Assembly: GCF_006539865.1 (NCBI RefSeq)
Contig: NZ_BJNV01000043.1
Coordinates: 1-44,562 of the forward strand
Direction of reading: 5' to 3'
Length of the DNA stretch: 44,562 bases
Source: Zoogloea ramigera
GTDB taxonomy: Bacteria; Pseudomonadota; Gammaproteobacteria; Burkholderiales; Rhodocyclaceae
Shown: positions 35,492 to 40,365 of the stretch, piece after piece
How positions within the stretch are numbered: the first letter of the stretch is position 1
Layout of the letters: the number at the start of each line of letters is the position of its first letter
Notes under the pieces: generated by a model
What the model was told of the DNA's origin: nothing
Databases searched by the model: none
The model's input: only the letters and a program-made list of their open reading frames with translations
Translations under genes and position numbers: made by a program

Positions 35492-35842
35492 TCACTCCTT
35501 CTTGATCAACCCCGCCAGCGCTGCAAACGGATTGTGCGTCGCAGCCTTGCCGGGTTGCTTGGCGGTGACGTTGCCCTGGGTGGCTTCGAGCTGGCGCTGG
35601 TGCTCGTTGTCGTGGCAGTAGAGGCACAGCAGCTCCCAGTTGCTGCCGTCGGGCGGGTTGTTGTCGTGGTTGTGGTCGCGGTGGTGCACGGTGAGTTCGC
35701 GCAGGTTGGCGTGGGTGAATTCGCGGGTGCAGCGGCCGCAGATCCAGGGGTAGATCTTGAGGGCTTTTTCGCGGTAGCCCTCGGCGCGCTTGTCGGCGGC
35801 GCGGCGGGCTTCGAGGACGAGGCGGTCGAGTTTTTCGCTCAT
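35492..35842 (-). CDS. yajD: HNH endonuclease-domain protein YajD
   Basis: 116 residues, very close in pattern to E. coli YajD: GYREKALKIYPWICGRC, LRELTVHHRDHNHDNNPPDG, SNWELLCLYCHDNEH. The HNH core (HHRDHNH) and zinc cysteines (CGRC, CLYC) are intact, and the tail NPFAALAGLIKKE also matches. DNA-cutting activity is expected from the fold, but the biological role of YajD is not known. ATG 35842 overlaps the stop of the arginase-aminotransferase gene by 4 bases, so the two are co-translated. Confidence 0.9.
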   Translation of the reverse strand: MSEKLDRLVLEARRAADKRAEGYREKALKIYPWICGRCTREFTHANLRELTVHHRDHNHDNNPPDGSNWELLCLYCHDNEHQRQLEATQGNVTAKQPGKAATHNPFAALAGLIKKE

Positions 35843-37968
35843 GCTTGGGCTCCAGGGAAGCGGGTGGCCAGGTCGGCCAGGGCGTCTTCGATGACTTCGG
35901 CGGCCCATTCGAGCTCGGGCTCGCCGACGATCAGCGGCGGGGCGAAGCGCAGCACGCTGTCGTGGGTGTCCTTGGTCATCAGGCCGCGGGCGAGCAGCCA
36001 TTCGGCGGCGGTGCGGGCGTTCACGCGGCGGGTGTCGAGCTCCATGCCGATCAGCAGCCCTCGGCCGCGCACTTCGCGGATCAGCGGGCTCTCGATGGCC
36101 TGCAGCCGGGCCAGGAAGGTGGCGCCGAGGCGGGCTGCGCGCTCGGCCAGGCGCTCGTCGGCGAGGAGGCGCAGGGCCTCGTCGGCGACCGCGGCGGCGA
36201 GCGGGTTGCCGCCGAAGGTGGAGCCGTGGTCGCCCGGGCGGAAGACCTGCATCAGCGCGTCGTTGGCCAGGAAGGCCGACACCGGCAGCAGCCCGCCGCC
36301 GAGGGCCTTGCCGAGGATCACCCCGTCGGGGCGCACGCCCTCGTGTTCGCAGGCGAGCAGGCGGCCGGTGCGGCCGAGGCCGGTCTGCACCTCGTCGGCG
36401 ATCAAGAGCACGTTGTGCTGGCGGCAGACTTCGGCGCAGCGGGCGAGCCAGCCGGCGGGCGGGATCACGATGCCGCCTTCGCCCTGGATGGGTTCAAACA
36501 GGAAGGCCGTGGTGTTGGGGGTGATGGCTGCCTCGAGGGCCGCTGCGTCGCCGTAGGGGATGCTGCAGAAGCCCGGCGCGAAGGGGCCGAAGCCGTCGCG
36601 GTACTGGGCCTCGGACGAGAAGCCGACGATGGTGGTTGAGCGGCCGTGGAAGTTGTTGGCGCAGACGATGATCTCGGCCTGGCCGTCGGCCACGCCCTTG
36701 AGCTTGTAGGCCCACTTGCGGGCGGCCTTGATGGCGGTCTCGACGGCTTCGAGGCCGGTGTTTACCGGCAGCGCGCGGTCGTAGCCGAGCAGGGCCGACA
36801 GGCGCTCGAGCATCAGCGGCAGGCGGTCGTTGGAGTAGGCCCGCGAGGTGAGTGCGAGCCGGCTGGCCTGCTCGGTGAGGGCGCGCACCAGGCGCGGGTG
36901 GCTGTGGCCGAAGCTGACCGCCGAGTAGGCGCTCATCATGTCGAGGTAGCGCCGGCCCTCGACGTCCCACAGCCAGACGCCCTCGCCGCGGGTGAACACC
37001 ACCGGCAGCGGGGCGTAGTTGCGGGCGCCGAAGGTGTCTTCGCGTTGGCGCAGCTGGGCGGTGGTGGGGCCGAGGGCGGCGGCGGCGATGTCGCGCACCC
37101 AGCCGGCGCCGCTGCCGTCGCGGTCGCGCTCGGGCACGTATTCGACGATCTCGAGGGCCATCAGGTCGGCGCAGCTGCGCAGGCCGTGGAGGGCGTCGAC
37201 GAGCTCCTGCGGGTCGAGGCCGTCGGGCACCAGGCAGGTGGTGGCGGGCAGTGCGGCGCAGTCGATGGAGTCGAGGTCCACCGACACGCCGAAGCCGGCG
37301 GTGCCCTCGCGGGCGATGGTCATGGCCTCGCACAGCACGGCGGGCAGGCCGCGGGCCTGGACTTCGGGCATGAAGAAGATCTTCACGCCGAGCTTCTGGA
37401 GCAGCTCCAGCTCTTCGGGCTCCCACGAGCGGGCGCCGACGATGGCCACGTGGGCCGGGTCGAGGTGCGGGCCGGGCAGGCCGGTGAGAGCCTCGTGGCC
37501 GACCCCCAGCAGCGCCGACAGGGGCATGCCGTGGATGTTGCCGGTGTGGGTGGTTCGCTCGGTGTGGGCGTCGAGGTGGGCGTCGATCCAGATCAGGCCG
37601 AGCTTGCCGCGGGGGGCCAGGCTGCGCGCGACGCCGCGCCAGGTGCCGGCGCCGATGGCGTGGTCGCCGCCCAGCACGAGGGGGATCGCGCCTTCGTCGC
37701 AGATGCCGGCGACGCTGTCGGCCAGGTCGTGCAGCAGGTTGCTGACCAGGGCCAGGCGCTCGGGCATCGGCGGGTGGGGCGGCTTGGGGGCCGAGGGTTC
37801 GAACAGGGCCTCCCAGCGGGCGCGCACGCCGCGCTGGCGGAGCTGGGCGTCGAGGCCGAGGGCGCGCAGGGCGCGGGGCCCGGCGGCGGGGCCGAAGATG
37901 GGGGCGCCGAGGCAGGAGCCGACGCCGACGATGTGGACCGGGCGGGAGGGCACGAACGGGGCTGGCAT
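35839..37968 (-). CDS. Arginase-ornithine aminotransferase fusion protein
   Basis: 709 residues in one frame. Residues 1-300 are an arginase: GGDHAIG (His103), DAHLDAH (Asp129, His131, Asp133), GNIHGMPL (His146), VDLDSID (Asp231, Asp233) and EIVEYVP (Glu276), so both manganese sites and the catalytic residues look present; the usual DP after the last Asp is DC. Residues about 305-705 are a class III aminotransferase of the ornithine type: YLDMMSAYSAVSFGHSHP, NTGLEAVETAIKAARKW, DEVQTGLGRTG (Asp525) and PLP Lys554 in GKALGGG. Arginine would become urea and ornithine, then glutamate semialdehyde, in one chain. The two parts join with almost no linker. No stop or frameshift is seen between them. 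Confidence 0.9.
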   Translation of the reverse strand: MPAPFVPSRPVHIVGVGSCLGAPIFGPAAGPRALRALGLDAQLRQRGVRARWEALFEPSAPKPPHPPMPERLALVSNLLHDLADSVAGICDEGAIPLVLGGDHAIGAGTWRGVARSLAPRGKLGLIWIDAHLDAHTERTTHTGNIHGMPLSALLGVGHEALTGLPGPHLDPAHVAIVGARSWEPEELELLQKLGVKIFFMPEVQARGLPAVLCEAMTIAREGTAGFGVSVDLDSIDCAALPATTCLVPDGLDPQELVDALHGLRSCADLMALEIVEYVPERDRDGSGAGWVRDIAAAALGPTTAQLRQREDTFGARNYAPLPVVFTRGEGVWLWDVEGRRYLDMMSAYSAVSFGHSHPRLVRALTEQASRLALTSRAYSNDRLPLMLERLSALLGYDRALPVNTGLEAVETAIKAARKWAYKLKGVADGQAEIIVCANNFHGRSTTIVGFSSEAQYRDGFGPFAPGFCSIPYGDAAALEAAITPNTTAFLFEPIQGEGGIVIPPAGWLARCAEVCRQHNVLLIADEVQTGLGRTGRLLACEHEGVRPDGVILGKALGGGLLPVSAFLANDALMQVFRPGDHGSTFGGNPLAAAVADEALRLLADERLAERAARLGATFLARLQAIESPLIREVRGRGLLIGMELDTRRVNARTAAEWLLARGLMTKDTHDSVLRFAPPLIVGEPELEWAAEVIEDALADLATRFPGAQA

Positions 37969-38064: not shown

Positions 38065-39591
38065 TCAGTGCAGCCAGCGCCAGGCTTCGAGGCCGATCAG
38101 CACTGCCAGCAGGCCGGCCATGGCGGCGATCCAGCGGTTCTGGCGGCGGGTTTCGTCGGCCAGCCGGGCGACCTGGGCGGGCAGGGCGTCGCTGTGGGGG
38201 GCGGTGAGGTGCTGGTGGATCAGGCGCGGCAGCTGGGGCAGGGTGCCGGCCCAGTCGGGGGCTTCGTTCTTGAGCTGGTTGACCAGCGCGCGCCAGCCGA
38301 TCTGGTCGTTCATCCAGCGTTCGAGGAAGGGCTTGGCGGTTTTCCAGAGGTCGAGGTCGGGGTCGAGCTGGCGGCCAAGGCCCTCGATGTTGAGCAGGGT
38401 TTTTTGCAGCAGCACCAGCTGGGGCTGCACCTCCATCTCGAAGCGGCGGGCGGTCTGGAACAGGCGCAGCAAGGTCTTGCCGAAGGAGATGTCTTTTAGC
38501 GGGCGGTCGAAGATCGGTTCGCAGACAGCGCGGATGGCGCCTTCGAACTCGTCCACCCGGGTGTGGGCGGGCACCCAGCCGGCCTCGATGTGGGCCAGCG
38601 CCACGCGGCGGTAGTCGCGCTGGAAGAAGGCCAGGAAGTTGGTGGCGAGGTATTTTTTGTCGGAGTCGTTGAGGGTGCCGATGATGCCGAAGTCGAGCGC
38701 GATGTAGCGCCCGCGGGCGGGGCCCTCGGTGGCGACGAAGATGTTGCCCGGGTGCATGTCGGCGTGGAAGAAGCCGTCGCGGAAGACCTGGGTGAAGAAG
38801 ATCTCGACGCCGGCCCGGGACAGGGCCTTGAGGTCGATGCCGTCGGCGCGCAGCTTGTCGAGCTGGGAGATGGGGATGCCCTTCATGCGCTCCATCACCA
38901 TCACGTTGGTGGCGCACCAGTCCCAGTGCACTTCGGGCACCACCAGCAGCTCGGAATCCTTGAAGTTGCGCCGCAGCTGCGAGCAGTTGGCGGCCTCGCG
39001 CATCAGGTCGAGCTCGTCGCGCAGATACTTGGAGAACTCGGCCACGACCTCCCGCGGCTTGAGGCGGCGGCCCTCGGGCCACACCTTCTCGAGCACCGTG
39101 GCGGCCGCGTCGAGCAGGGCCAGGTCGTGGGTGATGACCGGGGCGATGCCCGGGCGCAGGATCTTGACCGCCACCTCGGTGCCGTCGGGCAGCTGGGCGA
39201 AATGCACCTGGGCGATCGAGGCCGAGGCCACCGGCTGCCGGTCGAAGCGGGCGAAGACCTCGTCCACCGGCTTGCCGTAGGCGGCGTGCAGCTGGGCCAG
39301 CGCCTCTTCGGTGGGGAAGGGCGGCACGCGGTCCTGGAGACGGGCGAGCTCTTCGGCGATGGCCGGCGGCAGCAGGTCGCGGCGGGTGGACAGCATCTGG
39401 CCGAACTTGACGAAGATCGGGCCGAGGGATTCGAGGGCCTGGCGCAGGCGGGCGCCGGCGGGCTCGTCGAAGCGGCGGCGGTAGCGGCTGAGCCAAGCGA
39501 GCCGGCCGGTCGGCTCGTTGGAGAGGATCATCTGGTCGAGCCCGTATTTCAGGCTGACGGAGATGATCTTGACGAGGCGAAAGAGGCGCAC
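38065..39591 (-). CDS. ubiB: Ubiquinone biosynthesis protein UbiB (ADCK-like atypical kinase)
   Basis: 508 residues. The ABC1/ADCK hallmark KxGQ element is in [20 protein letters not shown]; the Ala-rich loop is [22 protein letters not shown] holds the ATP Lys; [11 protein letters not shown] and ALDFGIIG are the catalytic and metal loops. A C-terminal membrane helix (about 485-507) anchors it. UbiB supports coenzyme Q synthesis. Slightly shorter than E. coli UbiB (546). No ubiE or ubiJ gene lies next to it in the window. Confidence 0.94.
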
Positions 39592-39660: not shown

Positions 39661-40365
39661 TCAGCGCCGACGGCGCGGGCGCTCGGGCGGCGGCGGCTGG
39701 ACGCCCGGATGGACCTGCTCGACGAGCCAGCGCACGGTGTTGCGGATGTCGCGCCTGAGGGCTTCGTCGGCGGCGGGCGTGCCGAAGTCGAGGCGGGCCA
39801 GGCCGTCGCTATCGACGCCGAAGGGGGGCAGGCGCCATTCCCGCTCGACCACGAAGAGGTGGTCGCCGTCGCGGATGGCCTTCTGGGCCAGCACGTAGCC
39901 GTAGTTGCGCTCGCCGAAGCGCCCGCAGTAGGCGGTGCGGGTGGCGTGGGGCAGGCCGTCGCGCTCGCCGCTGGTGAGGCCGCTGGTGGTGAAGGGGCTG
40001 CAGTGGGAGGCGAGGCCGCTGGCGATGTGGCCGAGGTAGGCGTCGGGGCTCATGCCCTGGTCGGCGAAGCGCTGCACCAGGAGGCGGTCGCGGTAGTCCT
40101 CGATGCCCTGGTCGCGGGGGATGTATTCCTCGTGGCGGACGCCCTGGCCCGCGCGCCACTCGACGACACGCCAGCCCACGCCGGCCGGCAGCGGCAGGCG
40201 CCAGTCGAGGGTGGGCGGCTCGGCCAGCGCGCTGCCGGCGGCCAGCAAGCCTAAGGCCCCCAGCAGGGTGGCGGTGCCACGGCGGAGGGAGGGCCAGGGG
40301 CGGCAATTGGTACGGCGGCGAAGATCCACGGCGTGACTCGCTGGGCTGCGTGATCCCTCAAACAT
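39661..40365 (-). CDS. Secreted hypothetical protein
   Basis: 234 residues from ATG 40365; a GTG at 40328 would give a tighter signal peptide (VDLRRRTNCRPWPSLRRG, then TATLLGALGLLAAGSALAE). Either way it is exported, cut after Ala-Leu-Ala. The mature part has two Cys (SHCSPF and AYCGRF), which may form a disulfide, and the tail is Pro/Arg rich (PPPPERPRRRR). I do not recognise the family. It lies upstream of ubiB, 69 bases apart, and is divergent from argS. Confidence 0.7.
   Translation of the reverse strand: MFEGSRSPASHAVDLRRRTNCRPWPSLRRGTATLLGALGLLAAGSALAEPPTLDWRLPLPAGVGWRVVEWRAGQGVRHEEYIPRDQGIEDYRDRLLVQRFADQGMSPDAYLGHIASGLASHCSPFTTSGLTSGERDGLPHATRTAYCGRFGERNYGYVLAQKAIRDGDHLFVVEREWRLPPFGVDSDGLARLDFGTPAADEALRRDIRNTVRWLVEQVHPGVQPPPPERPRRRR

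Follow-up and report, generated by a model that had tools for sequence, protein, structure and literature searches.

This analysis focused on a single reading frame of Zoogloea ramigera, and on the question of whether two consecutive enzymes of arginine breakdown, arginase and ornithine aminotransferase (OAT), are genuinely specified there as one polypeptide, how such a gene may have come about, and what has become of its halves in related bacteria. The two reactions proposed for it are the same as those carried out in Bacillus, for example, by the products of separate genes, rocF (arginase) and rocD (ornithine aminotransferase); the domain families are shared, but here they are joined in one protein. 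The window is the whole stretch of DNA analysed, 44,562 nucleotides in length, and the features discussed are as follows.

35492..35842 (-), HNH (YajD-like) gene, downstream of the fusion; Pfam HNH; start codon ATG overlapping the fusion gene's TGA (ATGA)
35839..37968 (-), fused arginase-ornithine aminotransferase gene; 709 aa, ATG start, TGA stop, no internal stop
35878..37056 (-), ornithine aminotransferase half; TIGR01885 above cut-off
37030..37074 (-), junction, residues 299-313; end of the arginase C-terminal helix (299) and the next helix (303-313)
37105..37938 (-), arginase half, residues 11-288; Pfam PF00491 and alignment to the 1cev arginase
37225..37263 (-), altered active-site loop, residues 236-248; DCAALPATTCLVP, with 1cev counterpart DPSDAPGVGTPVI
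38065..39591 (-), ABC1/UbiB-like kinase gene, upstream of the fusion

Architecture and family assignment

Pfam placed two domains on the 709 aa protein, Arginase at residues 11-288 (E 2.8e-47) and Aminotran_3 at residues 314-697 (E 5.7e-120), in agreement with the initial annotation, which had described the two enzymes as joined in a single intact frame. The two-domain structure was predicted with confidence (pLDDT 91.5, pTM 0.86). In the model, the C-terminal helix of the arginase spans residues 286-299 and the following helix starts at residue 303, while the alignment of human OAT onto the fusion begins at residue 299-301. The very short linker that had been proposed is borne out by this geometry, and the segment from residue 289 to 312 is of identical length in 56 of 63 aligned fusions.

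The arginase half passed Pfam PF00491 (162 bits, against a gathering score of 22). Its best NCBIfam family was TIGR01229, the rocF equivalog, yet it fell below the cut-off (162.4 versus 227.6 bits), and an unfused relative with canonical arginase motifs (L077) was also under it, at 186.8 bits. The nearest solved structures were bacterial arginases (1cev, 142 bits), the best agmatinase reaching 58.4 bits. Agmatinase and formimidoylglutamase were considered as other identities for this half, and the scores appear to rule out both. The OAT half scored 516 bits against TIGR01885 (ornithine transaminase; cut-off 378) and would on its own pass NCBI's model, while remaining below the narrower NF003145 (526 versus 656 bits). 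It has the OAT fold, and its closest solved structures were the ornithine aminotransferase 3ruy (479 bits), then 5viu, which carries the name acetylornithine aminotransferase (466 bits), and human OAT (416 bits). When the whole model was used in a fold search, the best 50 rows were aminotransferases and the like, with no arginase, one domain having filled them.

The fusion gene is flanked downstream by a YajD-like HNH gene and upstream by an ABC1/UbiB-like kinase gene. The latter lies beside the fusion gene in 14 of the 33 loci read (in Zoogloea, Azoarcus, Aromatoleum, Thauera, and two members of the dead-arginase clade described below) and is absent there in the other 19. Neighbours were read in four Zoogloea-group loci, and the HNH gene comes after the fusion in L034, L048, and L037 (the locus of the isolate Zoogloea oleivorans) but not in L050. 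All four of these loci also carry, upstream of the UbiB-like gene, a 234 aa frame with no Pfam family, which in the window occupies 39661-40365 on the minus strand.

Active sites and pathway context

By alignment to 1cev, the metal ligands of the arginase half are H103, D129, H131, D133, D231, and D233, with H146 as the catalytic histidine and E276 as the glutamate, roles that we presume for these positions. All eight residues were retained in 119 of the 128 rows covering them (132 rows, four of them cut short, with the same contig occurring under two ids), in every Zoogloea row that covers them, and invariantly in a 63-row alignment (A1) from which the dead-arginase clade was omitted. In the OAT half, the PLP lysine K554, together with D525, Q528, Y318, Y348, and R443, was found in 132 of 132 rows, and R674 in all 130 rows that reach it; the roles of these residues are assumed after human OAT. 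The earlier statement that key residues of both enzymes are in place thus holds for the six ligands, the catalytic His, the Glu, and the PLP lysine alike.

It had also been noted that a DP motif following the metal-binding aspartates is altered to DC. This was read correctly (residues 236-237), although the change is not confined to one residue: the whole loop is altered across the lineage, with all ligands untouched. At column 237, C occurs in 29 and P in 81 of the 132 rows, duplicate ids included. The loop reads mostly DCxxLPATTCLxP in Zoogloea, mostly PAVTCPE in Azoarcus, Thauera, and Aromatoleum, and DPxxAPGVSTP in Dechloromonas. The NP motif of the arginase half is also changed, its N being replaced by V.

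The best explanation, and a likely one, is that the fusion acts in arginine breakdown as a bifunctional enzyme that would convert arginine to glutamate semialdehyde, its gene being derived from a compact rocF-rocD operon. Arginine would be split into urea and ornithine by the N-terminal half, at a site with two metals, and the C-terminal PLP half would transfer the delta-amino group of ornithine to 2-oxoglutarate, yielding glutamate semialdehyde (P5C) and glutamate. P5C could then be taken to glutamate by a PutA-type dehydrogenase, and the urea would go to urease. Both enzyme activities are predictions, and the benefit of joining them may be a fixed 1:1 supply and the co-location of the two steps. 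Mean pairwise dN/dS over 12 rows (Zoogloea and near MAGs), 0.30 for the arginase half and 0.23 for the OAT half, is in favour of this reading. Counting against it are the rocF score under the cut-off, the unusual loop together with the change of NP to VP, the lack of a urease match in some genomes with an intact fusion, and the relatives whose arginase half is dead.

In the genome of the window, the fusion was the one match in a search for arginase-family genes, and likewise the one match for ornithine aminotransferase at E 1e-100. Urease and a PutA-type P5C dehydrogenase are both present there, and the succinyltransferase-route gene astA gave no match in any of the 20 genomes searched, that of the window included. 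From this gene content, arginine would be expected to pass through the fusion to glutamate, and urea to ammonia. A urease search of 20 genomes was positive in 14, and the six in which it was not found include carriers of an intact fusion (G137, G048, and G003), so urea use is no fixed part of the system.

Fates of the two halves in relatives

Five MAG contigs titled Rhodocyclaceae (L093, L100, L104, L107, and L109) carry a fusion with an intact OAT half and an arginase half that has lost ligands. All five have H103 changed to Q, H131 to R, D233 to S or A, and E276 to R, while D133 is changed to E in three and H146 to D in one. In trees that hold three of the five rows, the stem branch of this clade is 1.44 for the arginase half versus 0.25 for the OAT half. 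Inside the clade (five rows), dN/dS is 0.29 for the arginase half and 0.13 for the OAT half; relative to L109, L093 is 84% identical and L100 77%. Assembly error was considered as the source of the clade and was rejected, given the losses shared by five contigs in intact frames and the dN/dS of the arginase half. The arginase fold is still predicted, though less confidently, and the alignment behind the prediction contained many intact relatives. In all four of the genomes searched (G104, G140, G170, and G194, which correspond to L107, L104, L109, and L100), a second gene shows canonical arginase motifs, as judged by eye. The existence of such relatives means that arginase activity is not guaranteed by the fusion.

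An arginase-like protein of Trypanosoma brucei, to our knowledge not fused, offers a parallel. It is without a metal cluster, as cited in PMC8503589, and the dead clade resembles it in having a non-catalytic arginase fold.

The opposite fate is seen in G108, which carries the arginase half alone (L191:1653-2708), the frame stopping soon after the arginase domain. In this genome, no OAT match was found at E 1e-100, and no urease was found. G108 is a single case, the other four sampled genomes of its genus all being fused. The loop of its lone arginase half reads PAVLCPE, and the gene is preceded by what by eye looks like a UbiB-like gene.

These two fates bear on the suggestion, made in the initial annotation, that ornithine may be channelled between the domains. 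A true channel within the protein, taking ornithine straight from one active site to the next, would suit two consecutive reactions separated by hardly any linker, at a junction mostly of one length. However, each half is found persisting in relatives in which the other has been lost or inactivated. This speaks against any strict reliance on channelling, and a channel of this kind is rather unlikely.

A further reading is that the arginase half of Zoogloea is itself already impaired, or altered in substrate, and that the protein is mainly an ornithine aminotransferase with an arginase-shaped scaffold. The altered loop and the change of NP to VP are in keeping with this, as is the related clade with its clearly dead arginase half. 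Selection estimates point the same way, dN/dS being higher for the arginase half in four of four groups tested. In addition, the arginase domain of the ornithine decarboxylase (ODC)-arginase of Fusobacterium nucleatum is described as non-functional (PMC12826042) and as unlikely to be active (PMC8503589). Set against this are the retention of the six ligands, the catalytic His, and the Glu throughout Zoogloea, the lack of any other arginase-family match in the genome of the window, and the lone arginase half of G108, which has a similar loop and is kept without an OAT. An impaired arginase in Zoogloea thus seems quite improbable, somewhat more so than a channel, and a bifunctional enzyme is preferred.

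Distribution, origin, and related fusions

The fusion was found in six of the six genomes sampled from the genus and in 60 of the 199 from the family, a hand count of match rows covering both halves that includes three genomes in which the gene is cut by contig ends (G104, G163, and G077, the last of which was left out of the ORF check of fused loci). The 60 genomes are spread over 25 of 68 genera. The best named relative is a Zoogloea MAG, with a protein 97% identical. Independent assemblies of Zoogloea and near MAGs (77-97% identical) show the same uninterrupted frame, as do Azoarcus, Aromatoleum, Thauera, and Dechloromonas, and the many assemblies with an open frame include isolates. A read error or hidden stop at 37050-37080, the weak point that had been flagged in the original reading, is therefore excluded, and the junction is authentic. 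An assembly or sequencing error that joined two adjacent genes is scarcely conceivable, and is ruled out for the window, since the frame is open across so many independent assemblies and genera and the junction is nearly constant in length, even though unfused relatives have the genes adjacent, sometimes in frame, and one apparent fusion (L116) has an ambiguous junction base.

The 191 loci examined comprised 130 fusions (a figure that includes L116, some contigs that appear under two ids, and others truncated within the gene, such as L076, L108, L110, and L192), 36 loci with the two genes adjacent, and 25 with an OAT gene only. Outside the family, a class sample of 369 genomes gave 55 listed matches, 30 of which were fetched; besides the window's own, the sole apparent fusion was L116, and the 25 unfetched matches cover the OAT half only. 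The apparent fusion of L116 is unsafe, as its junction holds an ambiguous base. In a phylum sample of 398 genomes, the window's own was the only fusion among the 22 matches listed. One alphaproteobacterial MAG (L098) is fused. As a separate observation, L202:560-2734 (minus strand) encodes an amidohydrolase domain followed by an Arginase-family domain in one frame of 724 aa; by eye these are imidazolonepropionase-like and formimidoylglutamase-like, perhaps a histidine-pathway fusion.

Of the 36 side-by-side, unfused rocF-rocD loci, a count in which some contigs appear under two ids, 17 have both genes in the same frame, and in 12 of these the open frames are separated by a single stop codon. 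The in-frame proportion is not an unbiased estimate, because loci were selected for their resemblance to a fused query, a choice that works in favour of fusions and of neighbours in frame. On Azospirillum and Skermanella plasmids, both halves match in one place, where the Skermanella annotation gives distinct rocF and rocD genes. A compact rocF-rocD operon of this type, still present in many relatives, is the probable ancestor of the fusion, which would have formed through loss of the stop codon and the short gap, so that the direction of change would have been from operon to fusion.

In the tree of each half, 64 fused rows fell together in a single group (support 99 for OAT and 87 for arginase). 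The fused or unfused label required a minimum of five changes on the trees, the starred branches forcing two (OAT) or three (arginase), with L116 still treated as fused and the odd rows named after the tree was seen. A single origin was rejected (p 0.002) when L098 and L116 were both counted as fused, the junction base of L116 being ambiguous. With L116 counted as unfused it was not rejected, either with L098 retained (p 0.274 for the arginase half and 0.276 for the OAT half; 30 fused rows) or with L098 excluded (p 0.485 and 0.723; 29 representative betaproteobacterial fusions). Neither several origins nor a single one is claimed here.

The initial annotation had held that its finding would be refuted if the fusion proved widespread and already described. 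It is widespread, as the family counts attest, but no paper on an arginase-OAT fusion was found in the open-access literature with the terms used, and the accessible parts of PMC3846528, PMC4653902, and PMC9309667 contain nothing on it. As far as that literature shows, the fusion is undescribed, although it has kin in ODC-arginase and AgrE. Like the Fusobacterium protein (Oda), it joins an arginase-family domain to an ornithine-consuming PLP enzyme. Oda differs in having a decarboxylase partner and a C-terminal arginase, whereas here Pfam places the arginase first and then Aminotran_3, and the arginase ligands are retained except in one clade. Cyanobacterial AgrE, according to PMC8262935, is likewise a single protein that processes arginine via ornithine to a proline-pathway product. 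It combines arginine dihydrolase with ornithine cyclodeaminase, however, giving proline and releasing nitrogen as ammonium, not urea, and its domains are absent from the Zoogloea fusion, in which Pfam finds only Arginase and Aminotran_3.

The enzyme chemistry is expected rather than surprising; it is the coexistence of unfused, fused, half-dead, and half-lost forms that raises the interest of this family. Tentatively, and with more doubt than confidence, they could be viewed as a natural series in the evolution of a fused metabolic enzyme. It would begin with neighbouring genes one stop codon apart and lead to a bifunctional enzyme whose junction hardly varies, from which two contrary outcomes would follow. 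In one, purifying selection would maintain a pseudo-arginase that serves the aminotransferase in a structural or regulatory capacity, possibly by sensing arginine or ornithine; in the other, the OAT partner is lost and the arginase is left free. Intact forms may pass ornithine within the oligomer. For Zoogloea, Thauera, Azoarcus, and their relatives, the fusion is a simple and widely distributed candidate for a bifunctional enzyme that would carry out the opening two steps of the arginase pathway. Because unfused, fused, half-dead, and half-lost forms occur in related species, both the advantage of fusing consecutive enzymes and what becomes of a fused domain once it is redundant are directly testable.
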